This document shows, piece after piece, positions 59,885 to 64,000 of a stretch of DNA of 64,000 nt (the stretch's first letter is position 1; every line of letters starts with the position of its first letter). Source of the DNA: Pyrobaculum neutrophilum V24Sta (GTDB taxonomy: Archaea; Thermoproteota; Thermoprotei; Thermoproteales; Thermoproteaceae). Location of the stretch: contig NC_010525.1 of assembly GCF_000019805.1 (NCBI RefSeq), positions 806,001-870,000 on the forward strand. The letters are read 5' to 3'. Position numbers and translations under genes: made by a program. Below the pieces are notes generated by a model. That model did no database searches and was not told the DNA's origin. It saw only the letters and a list, made by a program, of their open reading frames with translations.

Positions 59885-60562
59885 TTAGCGCCCGGCGGCC
59901 TGGTTTTCCGGCTGGAGGAGCCTCCTCACGAGGGGCTCGGCGGGGTCGGTGGGGCTGTTCTCCACGCACCTCCTCAGTCGGCCCTCCTCCATGACGCATA
60001 TGACGTCGCCTATGTAGGCGGCTTCGTAGGGGTCGTGGGTTACGTAGAGGACGGGCTTGCCCAGCCTCCTCACGGCGTCGTCCACAAGCCGCTTGTTGAA
60101 CCAGTCCAGGTGGGAGGTGGGCTCGTCCATGAGGAAGCCGCAGGCCCCCGCCAGGAGGCCCGCCGCGATGTTGACAAGCTGCTTCTGGCCGGTGGAGAGG
60201 CCCCTCCTGTCCAGAAGGTCCCTTATGCCCAGGAGGGCGGCCACCTCCTCCACCTCCCGCTCCCCCCGGCCCCACCTCGCCGCCACCCACCTCAGGAACC
60301 TCCTGGGGCCGCCGGGGGGGTCCACCGGCGTGGACTGTATATATACCAGCCCCCTCTCCTCCGGCGGGAGGCGCGACACCTCTCTCCCACACGCCTCCAC
60401 CGACCCCTCCGCCGGTATGGCTCCGGCTATCGCGTCCAGTAGCGTCGTCTTCCCGCTGCCGTTTCTCCCGAGCACCACCGTGACGGAGTTGACGGAGAGG
60501 CGCTCCACCTCCAGCTGGAACCTCCCCCTCCTGGCCCTAAGCCCCCTCACCTCGACAGCCAT
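59885..60562 (-). CDS. ABC transporter ATPase, molybdate/tungstate-type
   Basis: A 225-residue ATPase: Walker A GRNGSGKTTLLDAI, Q-loop YIQSTPVDPPGG, signature LSTGQKQLVNIAAGLL (LSTGQ variant), Walker B GFLMDEPTSHLD and H-loop YVTHDPYEA. Overlaps the upstream permease gene by 16 nt, forming one operon. Together with the divergent binding protein at 61473 it makes a complete importer. Metal specificity is deduced from that binding protein and from modD. Confidence 0.83.
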   Translation of the reverse strand: MAVEVRGLRARRGRFQLEVERLSVNSVTVVLGRNGSGKTTLLDAIAGAIPAEGSVEACGREVSRLPPEERGLVYIQSTPVDPPGGPRRFLRWVAARWGRGEREVEEVAALLGIRDLLDRRGLSTGQKQLVNIAAGLLAGACGFLMDEPTSHLDWFNKRLVDDAVRRLGKPVLYVTHDPYEAAYIGDVICVMEEGRLRRCVENSPTDPAEPLVRRLLQPENQAAGR

Positions 60563-61248
60563 AGCCTCAGTAGGTATGCCGTGGAGACCCCCAGAGCCGC
60601 GACGGCCATGGAGGCCGCCACCGTCGCGCCCAGCCCCTCCTGGAGGAAGGCCTGGTATATGTAGATGGACATGGTGGGCGGGTAGGAGGCGAAGATGAGG
60701 AGCACCCCAAGCTCCCCGAAGCCCCGGAGGAAGGACAGCAGGAAAGCGGCCGCGGCCGCCCTCCTCAGCGAGAGGAGGAGAGCCGCCAGAAGCCTAAGCC
60801 CCCCAAGCCCCAGCGACCTGAAGTAGAGCTCCGCCCTCACGTCCTTAAGCGCTCCGTCGAAAACCGCGTAGGACACCGGCAGAGCCATGACGAACATCGC
60901 CAGGAGGACCCCCGCCGCCTTGTTCACAAAAAAGCCGTAGAGCCACTCCGGCAGGAGGGGGTTCCTAAAGGCCGCCAGGAGGAGAACCCCCACTGCCGTA
61001 GGCGGCACGACGGCAGGCGCGTAGAGGATCTGCGCCACAGCCGCCCGCCAGCCCCCACGCCCCCAGACGGCCACAGCCAGCCCCGGGAGCAGACCGAGAC
61101 CGGCCGCCGCGCCGCTAAACAGAGCAGTGAGGAGAAACACCTCCGCGAACCCCGGCGGAGGCGCCCCCAGGTAGGCAACCGGCAGTATAAATAGTAGAAG
61201 CGCCACAAACACGACGGCGGCCAATGCCAGAGCCACAAAAGACAACAC
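60547..61248 (-). CDS. ABC transporter permease, ModB/WtpB-like
   Basis: A 233-residue permease with about six membrane helices. EAA-loop region YFRSLGLGGLRLLAALLLSLRRAAAAAFLLSFLRGFGELGVLLIFAS resembles molybdate/tungstate permeases. The start is GTG 61248 or GTG 61236, the latter lying about 25 nt after a TATA-like CCTAAATCC. Divergent from the two-headed binding protein, sharing the AT-rich region 61262-61440. Confidence 0.8.
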   Translation of the reverse strand: MLSFVALALAAVVFVALLLFILPVAYLGAPPPGFAEVFLLTALFSGAAAGLGLLPGLAVAVWGRGGWRAAVAQILYAPAVVPPTAVGVLLLAAFRNPLLPEWLYGFFVNKAAGVLLAMFVMALPVSYAVFDGALKDVRAELYFRSLGLGGLRLLAALLLSLRRAAAAAFLLSFLRGFGELGVLLIFASYPPTMSIYIYQAFLQEGLGATVAASMAVAALGVSTAYLLRLWLSR

Positions 61249-61472: not shown

Positions 61473-63542
61473 ATGCGGTGGGTGGTCCTAATCGGGGTTG
61501 TAGCTCTAATTGTAACAATAGCATTCTTGTTGCAGATCCAACAGCCACCACAGAAGACACAAGAGACGGCGGCTACAACGGCGACTCCTCCTCTGAAGTC
61601 TCCGGAGACGGCGGCACCCGGTGCTACGGCGACTAAGGCGTGCTCGGGCTCGCCTCTGGGCTATATCCCTCCCGCTCTCGTCAAGGTGATTAAAGACGCG
61701 GCGGCGGCTGCGGGGCTTGGCACAGAGGGGATACAGTCTATGGGGTGTGTAGAAGGCGTCAGGAGGATACAGGGCGGAGCTAAGCCGGACATATTTGCAT
61801 GCGTAGACATAGAGCTGAGGCCAGACGCCGAGAGGGCGGGGGCCCTCCAGACCTACTCGCTGGGGAGGTTCAAGCTGGCCCTCGTCTGCAGAAGCCCCAC
61901 GGCTCTTGAGGAGCTGGCCTCCGCCAAGACGGTCTTCGCAGACCCCAACAAGGCCCCCATCGGCTATAGGGAGCTCGCCGCCGCGTGGATGCTGTCTCGG
62001 GACCTCGGCGTCAACCTCACGGCGAAGTACACCGCCCTGGGGGTGAGGTTTGTATACAACGGCACCCTCTACATCTACATACCCAGCTCCCTCCCCAACA
62101 CCGAGGCGGTAGACGTGGCCCCCAACCTGGACGGCTCCTGGGCTAAGTTCGAGGCGGGGGCGGGCCGTTGCATGTTCGCCTACGTCCCCTTCCTCCTCGG
62201 CAAAGGCCTCCAGCTTAGGCCCGCCGGCGGCGGCACCAGCTACTGGGAGCCGTACACGGCCGAGGCGGGTGGGAGGACCTACTACGTGTACGTCTTCAAG
62301 CCGCCCTACGACTTTGTGGAGGATCCGCCCATCAAAGCCGTGGCCGTCCTCCTCGGCCCGCCGGCCAAAACCATCAGGGTGGGCCACTTCGAGGCCTTCG
62401 TGGCCTCCTACACGGAGCTGGGCAACTGCGTCGTAGAGTCGCTGAAGAAGATGGATTTGTCGAAGTACGGGTTTATAACCACGGCCCGGGCTACGGCCGG
62501 CGTGTCTAAGTCAGCTGTTGTGGAGGTAGTGGATGTGCTTGGGCGGCGGGTGTCTGTGAAGGCGCCTGTGTCTAGAGTTGTGGCTTTGGGGCCGGGGGCG
62601 CTTAGGCTCGTGGTATATCTCAACGCCACAGACAAACTAGCCGGGATAGAAGAGATAGAGAAGAGGCCACCCCAAGGCAGAGACTACGGCTACATCCTCT
62701 GGACAAAAAACCTCACCTCGCTTCCAGTGGTTGGGCGGGGTGGGCCTGGTAGCCCTGTTGACTACGAGAGGATACTATCTGTGAGACCGGACGTGATTAT
62801 CATGTCGCCTTTTGTGGCCGACGCCCCCGACAAGATCCAGGAGAAAACTGGCATACCCGTGGTGGTTGTGTCGGCTTTTATCGACAGCGGCGAGGGCTGG
62901 GTCAACTTCACTAGTTTGTACAAGTCTCTTAGGACCGTCGGCGTTTTGTTGGGTAGAGAGGAGAGGGCTGAGGAGCTGGTTAGATACATGGAGGATTTGA
63001 TCAAGGATCTCAAGAGGCGCACCGCCAACATAACCCAAAGGCCGAAGGTGTACGTAGGCGCAATCTCCGCCAGAGGCGGCCAGCCCTTTGAAGCGACTCA
63101 GTCGTACTTCCCGCCGCTGGTCTTGCTGAACACGCCGGGCGTCGCAGATAAATACGGAATAAAAGGGGTTGCTAAGATCGACTGGGAGGCGCTTCTGAAG
63201 GAGCAACCAGACGTAATCTTCATCGACTTGGGGAACTATATGTTTGTAGCGCAGGACTTTAACAAGAGCCGGGATAAGTACTGCTCTCTTAAGGCCTTTA
63301 GAGAGGGGAGGGTATACGGCATTTTGATGTACAACTGGTATGGAACCAACATCGCTACGCTTTTTGCTGATGCCTACTTTATGGGTAAGGTGCTTTATCC
63401 GGAGGCGTTTAGGGATGTGGATCCTGTGGCTAAGGCTGACGAGATCTATAGGGAGTTCCTCGGCGCGCCCCTCTACACGGCAGTAGCCAAGGATTTCAAA
63501 GGAGGATTTAGACAGCTGACGGAGTTCAAATGCGGGTCCTAA
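61473..63542 (+). CDS. Two-headed binding protein: ModA/WtpA-like domain fused to BtuF/FecB-like domain
   Basis: A 689-residue protein. Membrane anchor (VVLIGVVALIVTIAFLL) and Thr/Pro-rich linker (20-50). Domain 1 (about 55-325) is WtpA/ModA-like: CVEGVRRIQGGAKPDIFACVDIELRP, FADPNKAPIGYRELAAAWMLS, YNGTLYIYIPSS, CMFAYVPFLLGKGL. Domain 2 (about 345-689) is a class III (COG0614) binding protein: VVEVVDVLGRRVSVKAPVSRVVALGPGALRLVVYL, PVDYERILSVRPDVIIMSP, KIQEKTGIPVVVVSA, WEALLKEQPDVIFIDLG. Codon use becomes less GC-rich at the junction (about 62445). A single binding protein normally carries only one of these. Followed by modD. Confidence 0.85.
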   Translation: MRWVVLIGVVALIVTIAFLLQIQQPPQKTQETAATTATPPLKSPETAAPGATATKACSGSPLGYIPPALVKVIKDAAAAAGLGTEGIQSMGCVEGVRRIQGGAKPDIFACVDIELRPDAERAGALQTYSLGRFKLALVCRSPTALEELASAKTVFADPNKAPIGYRELAAAWMLSRDLGVNLTAKYTALGVRFVYNGTLYIYIPSSLPNTEAVDVAPNLDGSWAKFEAGAGRCMFAYVPFLLGKGLQLRPAGGGTSYWEPYTAEAGGRTYYVYVFKPPYDFVEDPPIKAVAVLLGPPAKTIRVGHFEAFVASYTELGNCVVESLKKMDLSKYGFITTARATAGVSKSAVVEVVDVLGRRVSVKAPVSRVVALGPGALRLVVYLNATDKLAGIEEIEKRPPQGRDYGYILWTKNLTSLPVVGRGGPGSPVDYERILSVRPDVIIMSPFVADAPDKIQEKTGIPVVVVSAFIDSGEGWVNFTSLYKSLRTVGVLLGREERAEELVRYMEDLIKDLKRRTANITQRPKVYVGAISARGGQPFEATQSYFPPLVLLNTPGVADKYGIKGVAKIDWEALLKEQPDVIFIDLGNYMFVAQDFNKSRDKYCSLKAFREGRVYGILMYNWYGTNIATLFADAYFMGKVLYPEAFRDVDPVAKADEIYREFLGAPLYTAVAKDFKGGFRQLTEFKCGS

Positions 63543-63561
63543 GCCCACTAGTTTTTCTGGC

Positions 63562-64000
63562 ATGAAGAGCCGGCTGGAGGCTTGGCTTTTGGAGGATCTG
63601 GGGAGCTACGACTTGACTACTGAGGTTCTAGGCATCGGGGGTCTGAGGGGGGTTGCCCAGCTCTTCGCCAGGGAGGAGGCGGTGGTGGCTGGGTCTGAGG
63701 AGGCGGCTGAGGTGTACAAGCTGGCGGGTTGCGGGGAGGTGGAGGTGGTTAAGAGGAGCGGCCAGCTGGCGCGGAGGGGCGACGTCGTGTTGCGGGCGGT
63801 GGGGGAGGCCCGGTGTCTACACGCCGCCTGGAGGACGGCGCAGGAGGTCGTTGCTTGGGCCTCGGGGGTCGCCACGAAGACGAGGAGGCTGGTGGAGCTG
63901 GCGCGGCGGGTCAACCCAAGGGTCGTGGTGGCGGCTACGCGGAAGACGCCGCCCGGCCTAAGGGCCCTGTATCACAAGGCGGTGCTGGCGGGAGGGGGTA
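63562..64000 (+). CDS. modD: ModD-like phosphoribosyltransferase (NadC paralogue), truncated by window edge
   Basis: The first 146 residues: LEAWLLEDLGSYDLTTEVLGIGGLRGVAQLFAREEAVVAGSEEAAEVYKLAG, CLHAAWRTAQEVVAWASGVATKTRRLVELARRVNP, and VVVAATRKTPPGLRALYHKAVLAGGG. The LTTEVLGIG start and YHKAVLAGG are closer to ModD, a NadC paralogue found beside Mo/W transporters, than to NadC itself. Context (20 nt after the Mo/W-type binding protein) supports ModD, but NadC remains possible until the rest is seen. Confidence 0.75.
   Translation, partial: MKSRLEAWLLEDLGSYDLTTEVLGIGGLRGVAQLFAREEAVVAGSEEAAEVYKLAGCGEVEVVKRSGQLARRGDVVLRAVGEARCLHAAWRTAQEVVAWASGVATKTRRLVELARRVNPRVVVAATRKTPPGLRALYHKAVLAGGG

Follow-up and report, generated by a model that had tools for sequence, protein, structure and literature searches.

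The 64,000-nucleotide window analysed here, a forward-strand stretch of the Pyrobaculum neutrophilum V24Sta chromosome (positions 806,001 to 870,000 of NC_010525.1), carries near its right-hand end a gene encoding a protein of 689 amino acids with an unusual architecture. An N-terminal anchor is followed by a ModA/WtpA-like domain (hereafter D1), a linker, and a class III substrate-binding domain resembling TM0189 (D2). The reading frame is uninterrupted from its ATG at 61473 to its stop codon at 63542, and the gene and its surroundings comprise the following features:

59885..60562, minus strand: ModC/WtpC-like ATPase, with a clear family match lying under the NCBIfam equivalog cut-offs
60547..61248, minus strand: WtpB/ModB-like permease, divergent from the fusion gene (NCBIfam WtpB 2.7e-15 and modB 1.6e-14, both below the curated cut-offs)
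61473..63542, plus strand: fusion gene, 689 aa, delimited by Pfam, PDB and profile matches and, for D1, by AlphaFold2/Foldseek
61473..61538, plus strand: N-terminal membrane anchor or signal helix, residues 2-22 (AlphaFold2 helix 2-22)
61635..62483, plus strand: D1, ModA/WtpA-like oxyanion-binding domain, residues 55-337 (profile, AlphaFold2, Foldseek)
61953..61955, plus strand: Ala161, aligned with the Asp of WtpA that ligates and selects tungstate ('DPCGYR' changed to 'APIGYR'; alignment)
62151..62153, plus strand: Glu227, counterpart of WtpA's second metal-ligating carboxylate and invariant in D1 relatives (alignment)
62477..63561, plus strand: 1,085-bp segment, linker and D2, absent from the Thermoproteus genome described below, where D1 runs into modD (blastn)
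62511..63539, plus strand: D2, class III substrate-binding domain, residues 347-689 (Pfam, PDB, paralogue match)
62700..63359, plus strand: region of blocks diverged from the D2 paralogue, residues ~410-492, 532-568, 585-599 and 612-629 (sequence comparison)
62766..62768, plus strand: Glu432, putative counterpart of the N-lobe Glu through which class III proteins dock on FecCD/BtuC-type permeases (sequence)
63186..63188, plus strand: Glu572, putative counterpart of the C-lobe docking Glu (sequence)
63562..63999, plus strand: modD (quinolinate phosphoribosyltransferase-like; TIGR01334 2.2e-33), running off the window and complete as L047:7563-8381

The anchor helix of the fusion protein is followed by a Pro/Thr/Ala-rich linker extending to about residue 54. 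As the initial annotation had proposed, the sole permease/ATPase pair adjoining the gene is of the Mo/W type, its products being WtpB/ModB- and ModC/WtpC-like in NCBIfam searches. D1 is thus accompanied by a neighbouring permease and ATPase of the WtpB/WtpC type, and no FecCD permease/ATPase pair that could be linked to D2 adjoins the fusion gene.

Searched alone against Pfam, D1 produced a sub-threshold match to SBP_bac_11 (E=0.078), and its assignment came from profile and fold comparisons. A profile built from 10 D1 relatives retrieved WtpA/ModA structures first among PDB entries (3cfz, E=2.9e-6; 3cfx, 1.4e-3; also 3k6u and 3cg1), and Foldseek matched the domain's AlphaFold2 model (pLDDT mostly 85-92) to 2onk, 3cfx, 3cij and 3cg1 with E values from 5e-9 to 3e-10 and TMt of ~0.6-0.65, these partners being AfModA in the ModBC complex, MaModA and PfWtpA. 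Both the fold and the sequence profile are therefore those of the ModA/WtpA group, and a chance match is excluded by the two positive comparisons. The metal site differs from that of WtpA: position 161 is occupied by Ala or Gly in all D1 relatives, so that of the Asp and Glu that ligate the metal only the Glu is kept. As the selective Asp is absent, D1 was not filed as a canonical WtpA. In PfWtpA, mutating this Asp abolishes the discrimination between tungstate and molybdate (PMC10221389), and because the same residue is replaced in D1, we infer that the domain should bind Mo/W oxyanions with little W/Mo selectivity. The D1 family corresponds to a published 'ModABC-like' group restricted to seven Pyrobaculum species and T. 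tenax (PMC6147048).

The second half was readily recognised by Pfam, with a Peripla_BP_2 (PF01497) match at residues 369-616 (E=1.3e-26; 94 bits against a cut-off of 27.5), and residues 354-681 matched TM0189 of Thermotoga maritima (PDB 2etv, E=1.4e-80), to which D2 is about 40% identical. From these matches D2 is assigned the class III, TM0189-like fold. Since the alignment underlying the AlphaFold2 model of the whole chain (mean pLDDT 58.5) contained no D2 relatives, the D2 part of that model is unreliable. Glu occurs at both putative docking positions, E432 and E572, whose role we assign by analogy with BtuF; the surroundings of the N-lobe residue read VDYERIL in D2 and VNFEAVM in its paralogue (see below). 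The D2 family also showed remote homology to MolA (3psa, profile match E=2e-12), YiuA-like iron-binding proteins were found among the D2 results, and TM0189 itself, the closest structure, carries an iron(III)-binding annotation; no established ligand was found for the TM0189-type subfamily. Viral contigs searched for D2 relatives contained none, and no plasmid record covered 80% of the fusion, only the D2 part being covered among the matches listed. Searching the halves separately, as had been suggested, thus upheld the view that Mo/W-type and class III binding domains share one polypeptide, as well as the view that the two folds belong to different importer classes, type I and type II. Importers of these two types, the usual partners of the two domains, differ in their folds and mechanisms.

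A missed stop codon or frameshift near position 62450 had been raised as a possible objection. This objection fails: an identical architecture was found in a second genome (G004), which we take to be P. islandicum, a sister species of the window's own organism (G000), where the protein is 688 aa long and 95% identical. A sequencing or assembly artefact, or a pair of split genes, is ruled out by this second genome, and the fusion gene encodes a single real protein, conserved in both species, in which two binding domains are combined. The first suggestion of a genuine historical fusion is borne out by the sister species. The change in GC bias advanced in its favour is real, with 63.8% GC and a skew of 0.007 in D1 and 53.8% and 0.171 in D2, but it does not in itself prove a fusion: the domain of the stand-alone paralogue is biased much like D2 (57.3%, skew 0.134), so the step at the junction marks the source gene and is only consistent with fusion.

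The survey covered 45 genomes of the order, among them P. oguniense TE7 (G005) and Pyrobaculum sp. WP30 (G006). Only the two sister species carried the fusion; in the other relatives whose D1 gene was readable, D1 stood alone in a gene of about 310-360 aa, usually with WtpB/WtpC-like genes as neighbours. A scan of genome contigs with D1 alone returned 4 named loci. Across the phylum, 34 of the 397 genomes contained relatives of D2 above E=1e-40, and only the two fusions had a frame as long as ~697 codons. In G015, probably Thermoproteus tenax Kra1, D1 ends in TTTATAAAATGA and its stop codon overlaps the modD ATG. By blastn, identity between the window and this genome stops at 62476 and resumes at the modD ATG at 63562. 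The inserted D2 has a close paralogue 500 kb away in the same genome, a stand-alone gene (G000:C1:352474-353496) whose product is 86% identical; at the DNA level, positions 62516-63541 are 87% identical to this gene, and the paralogue's own anchor and linker are missing from the fusion. The fusion is the derived state. As D2 corresponds to the paralogue minus its anchor and linker, placed at the junction of D1 and modD, the arrangement is best explained if the domain-coding stretch of a class III gene was copied into the 3' end of a wtpA-like gene in the ancestor of both species.

WtpB, WtpC, ModD, DUF364, FecCD and ATPase proteins of L033 (G015:C1:230000-248000) share ~95-98% identity with those of L034/L047 in G000, a member of a different genus, and both operons lie side by side in G015; this looks like the transfer of a Mo/W uptake island. 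In G015 a frameshift following '...YGIPPGAK' disrupts the D2-type gene itself (L033:11950-13130, minus strand) and may reflect a pseudogene, a programmed shift or a sequencing error.

Comparison of the two fusions gave dN/dS values of 0.18 for D1 and 0.11 for D2, which shows that purifying selection has kept both halves. Two peculiarities of D1 were noted along the way. Residues 55-115 (61635-61817) show a synonymous divergence of ~0.82 between G000 and G004, against 0.11 in residues 116-335, which suggests that this part was replaced via recombination. In addition, C92 (61746-61748) and C110 (61800-61802) are Cys in G000 and G015, whereas G004 and the remaining relatives have Ser; the loss of these two conserved Ser, expected to belong to the oxyanion site, may weaken oxyanion binding in G000.

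D2 and its in-genome paralogue are mosaics, in which near-identical blocks alternate with strongly diverged ones. The longest identical runs between fusion and paralogue reach 131 nt in G000 and 203 nt in G004, lengths attained in 0 of 5000 shuffles of the differences. In a tree of the near-identical blocks the G000 fusion pairs with the G000 paralogue (support 0.945), and eight sites are common to both copies within each genome and differ between G000 and G004, which together indicate that exchange went on after the species split. The tree of the diverged blocks conflicts with this one and places the two fusions together (support 1.0), with a fusion branch about three times as long as that of the paralogue (0.258 vs 0.078). 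In these blocks, whose limits were drawn after inspection, 38% of third positions differ between fusion and paralogue, and the G000 and G004 fusions are 97% identical in protein. They contain SPFVADAP, SAFIDSGEG, ARGGQPFEATQSY, GNYMFVAQ and MYNWYGTN, the last reading FNHYW or FNYYW in unfused Pyrobaculum relatives, and by analogy with other class III proteins they are probably the ligand loops of the cleft. The sequence pattern thus indicates gene conversion between D2 and the gene it came from, certain blocks staying diverged. Long-lasting gene conversion between archaeal duplicates is already on record, at least in the account of the duplicated mtrA genes (PMC4632066), and the process itself is therefore not new.

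The paralogue belongs to an operon encoding an FmdE/DUF364 protein, the binding protein, a FecCD permease (G000:C1:353.5 kb) and an ATPase. Both fusion genomes possess a complete FecCD/ATPase pair, located in G000 at L034:10488-12243, and G000 has three FecCD genes in all. The gene preceding the D2-type paralogue encodes DUF364 in Pyrobaculum and G015, and FmdE in the majority of other Thermoproteota (three members of cluster cl3 were scanned). In G015, an operon of the FmdE/DUF364 type lies directly beside the wtpBC-like genes. CbiM follows the paralogue operon in G000 and G004 and, among the operons surveyed, was otherwise found only near that of G046. More broadly, twenty Thermoproteota loci (L087-L106) displayed a recurrent arrangement of FmdE (with zinc finger), class III binding protein, FecCD and ATPase, a widespread metal importer. 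Variants occur in G009: between DUF364 and the binding protein lies a protein of 324 aa whose second half contains an FmdE domain (L037:6585-7559), and a second D2-type gene (L038:7525-9505) is followed by short ORFs of 76 and 91 aa at the expected permease site, so that this operon has possibly decayed.

Genome context has tied DUF364 genes to the transport of tungstate, molybdate, vanadium and iron (PMC2954201), and most FmdE genes adjoin metal-ion transporters, the name deriving from a molybdenum formylmethanofuran dehydrogenase operon (PMC2954224). MolA is a class III protein that binds molybdate and tungstate and serves the type II importer MolBC, and in H. influenzae a high-affinity Mod and a low-affinity Mol molybdate importer act in parallel (PMC4031551). 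With this precedent, a different class does not imply a different ligand. The initial label of D2 as BtuF/FecB-type holds as regards the class III fold, but a BtuF- or siderophore-type assignment is probably wrong, in view of the FmdE/DUF364 operons and of MolA. Taken with the operon lying beside Wtp-like genes in G015, the MolA precedent suggests that both halves probably serve Mo/W uptake.

We tentatively favour, at somewhat less than an even chance, a membrane-anchored bivalent protein acting in Mo/W uptake, with D1 supplying the neighbouring type I permease and D2 a type II permease encoded elsewhere. D1 would deliver molybdate or tungstate to the WtpBC-like importer, and D2, with its changed pocket, would deliver a related Mo/W species, either the oxyanion at another affinity or a chelate or thio form. 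D2 would dock in trans on a FecCD/ATPase type II importer, most likely that of the paralogue operon, a single anchor holding the Mod-like and Mol-like arms together. The lack of an adjacent FecCD permease, the changed residues around E432, the iron annotation of TM0189 and, in G000, C92 and C110 all count against such a protein. In its strongest form, one protein would couple type I and type II ABC importers by docking on both ModB-type and FecCD-type permeases, a proposal that we regard as rather doubtful. We have similar reservations about its corollary, that the two arms might cover two affinity ranges or chemical forms of Mo/W, with the pocket blocks shielded from conversion with a paralogue serving the same permease.

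Alternatively, D2 might not dock on any permease and might instead capture a metal chelate or Mo/W complex and supply it to D1, all entry then occurring via WtpBC. The exclusively WtpBC-like adjacent genes, the anchor common to both domains, and pocket blocks unlike those of the permease-linked paralogue would fit such a hand-off, which we nevertheless consider unlikely given the Glu kept at both putative docking positions and the complete FecCD/ATPase pair of both fusion genomes; moreover, no case of fused binding domains passing a ligand directly from one to the other is known to us. It seems equally improbable that D2 keeps a substrate other than Mo/W, such as iron, a nickel/cobalt chelate or a corrinoid, so that two unrelated metals share one anchor. 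Membership of the Peripla_BP_2 family, the YiuA-like matches and the CbiM gene beside the paralogue operon of G000 point in that direction, but CbiM is not a general neighbour, and the FmdE/DUF364 linkage, the wtpBC adjacency in G015 and the similarity to MolA favour Mo/W. Finally, D2 is very unlikely to be a recently inserted passenger without a function of its own on a still working D1, for although it is carried by two species only, originated by insertion and could be kept intact by gene conversion in the absence of selection, its dN/dS between them is low and the blocks that conversion did not homogenise are nearly unchanged in protein between the two species.

If both domains of the bivalent protein work, the fusion offers a natural test of whether one protein serves both importer types. 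It also provides a genomic handle, pointing to Mo/W, on the ligand of the widespread FmdE/DUF364-linked FecCD importer, and D2 and its paralogue amount, on a small scale, to a natural experiment on how specificity changes while gene conversion continues. To our knowledge, no other binding protein joins ModA/WtpA-type and class III domains.

Among known systems, the first half is closest to WtpABC and ModABC, including the 'ModABC-like' group (PMC6147048), with which it has in common D1 itself, WtpB- and WtpC-like genes in divergent or co-linear arrangement, the ModA/WtpA fold and Glu227; it departs from them in the missing tungstate-selective Asp and in the extra class III domain. D2 resembles TM0189-type proteins encoded with FecCD and ATPase genes, in its identity to TM0189 and to the in-genome operon member and in having Glu at the putative docking positions; in contrast to them it has neither its own anchor and linker nor an adjacent permease, and its ligand-loop blocks are changed (FNHYW to YNWYG, among others). 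The type II molybdate importer MolBC-A (HI1470/71/72) likewise uses a class III fold for an oxyanion, in an organism that combines Mod-type and Mol-type uptake, but MolA is a separate protein with remote sequence similarity to D2. GlnPQ (PMC8025302) and double Peripla_BP_2 proteins also present two binding domains on one chain with one anchor. Two of the latter, of 723 and 682 aa, are encoded about 10 kb apart in G000 itself (L048:3401-5572 and L048:15073-17121), the first adjoining a FecCD permease and an ATPase. Such tandems repeat one fold for one transporter, whereas the fusion combines domains of two classes, each with its own type of permease. Tandem binding domains are thus already known, and the fusion of two different fold classes is the new aspect.
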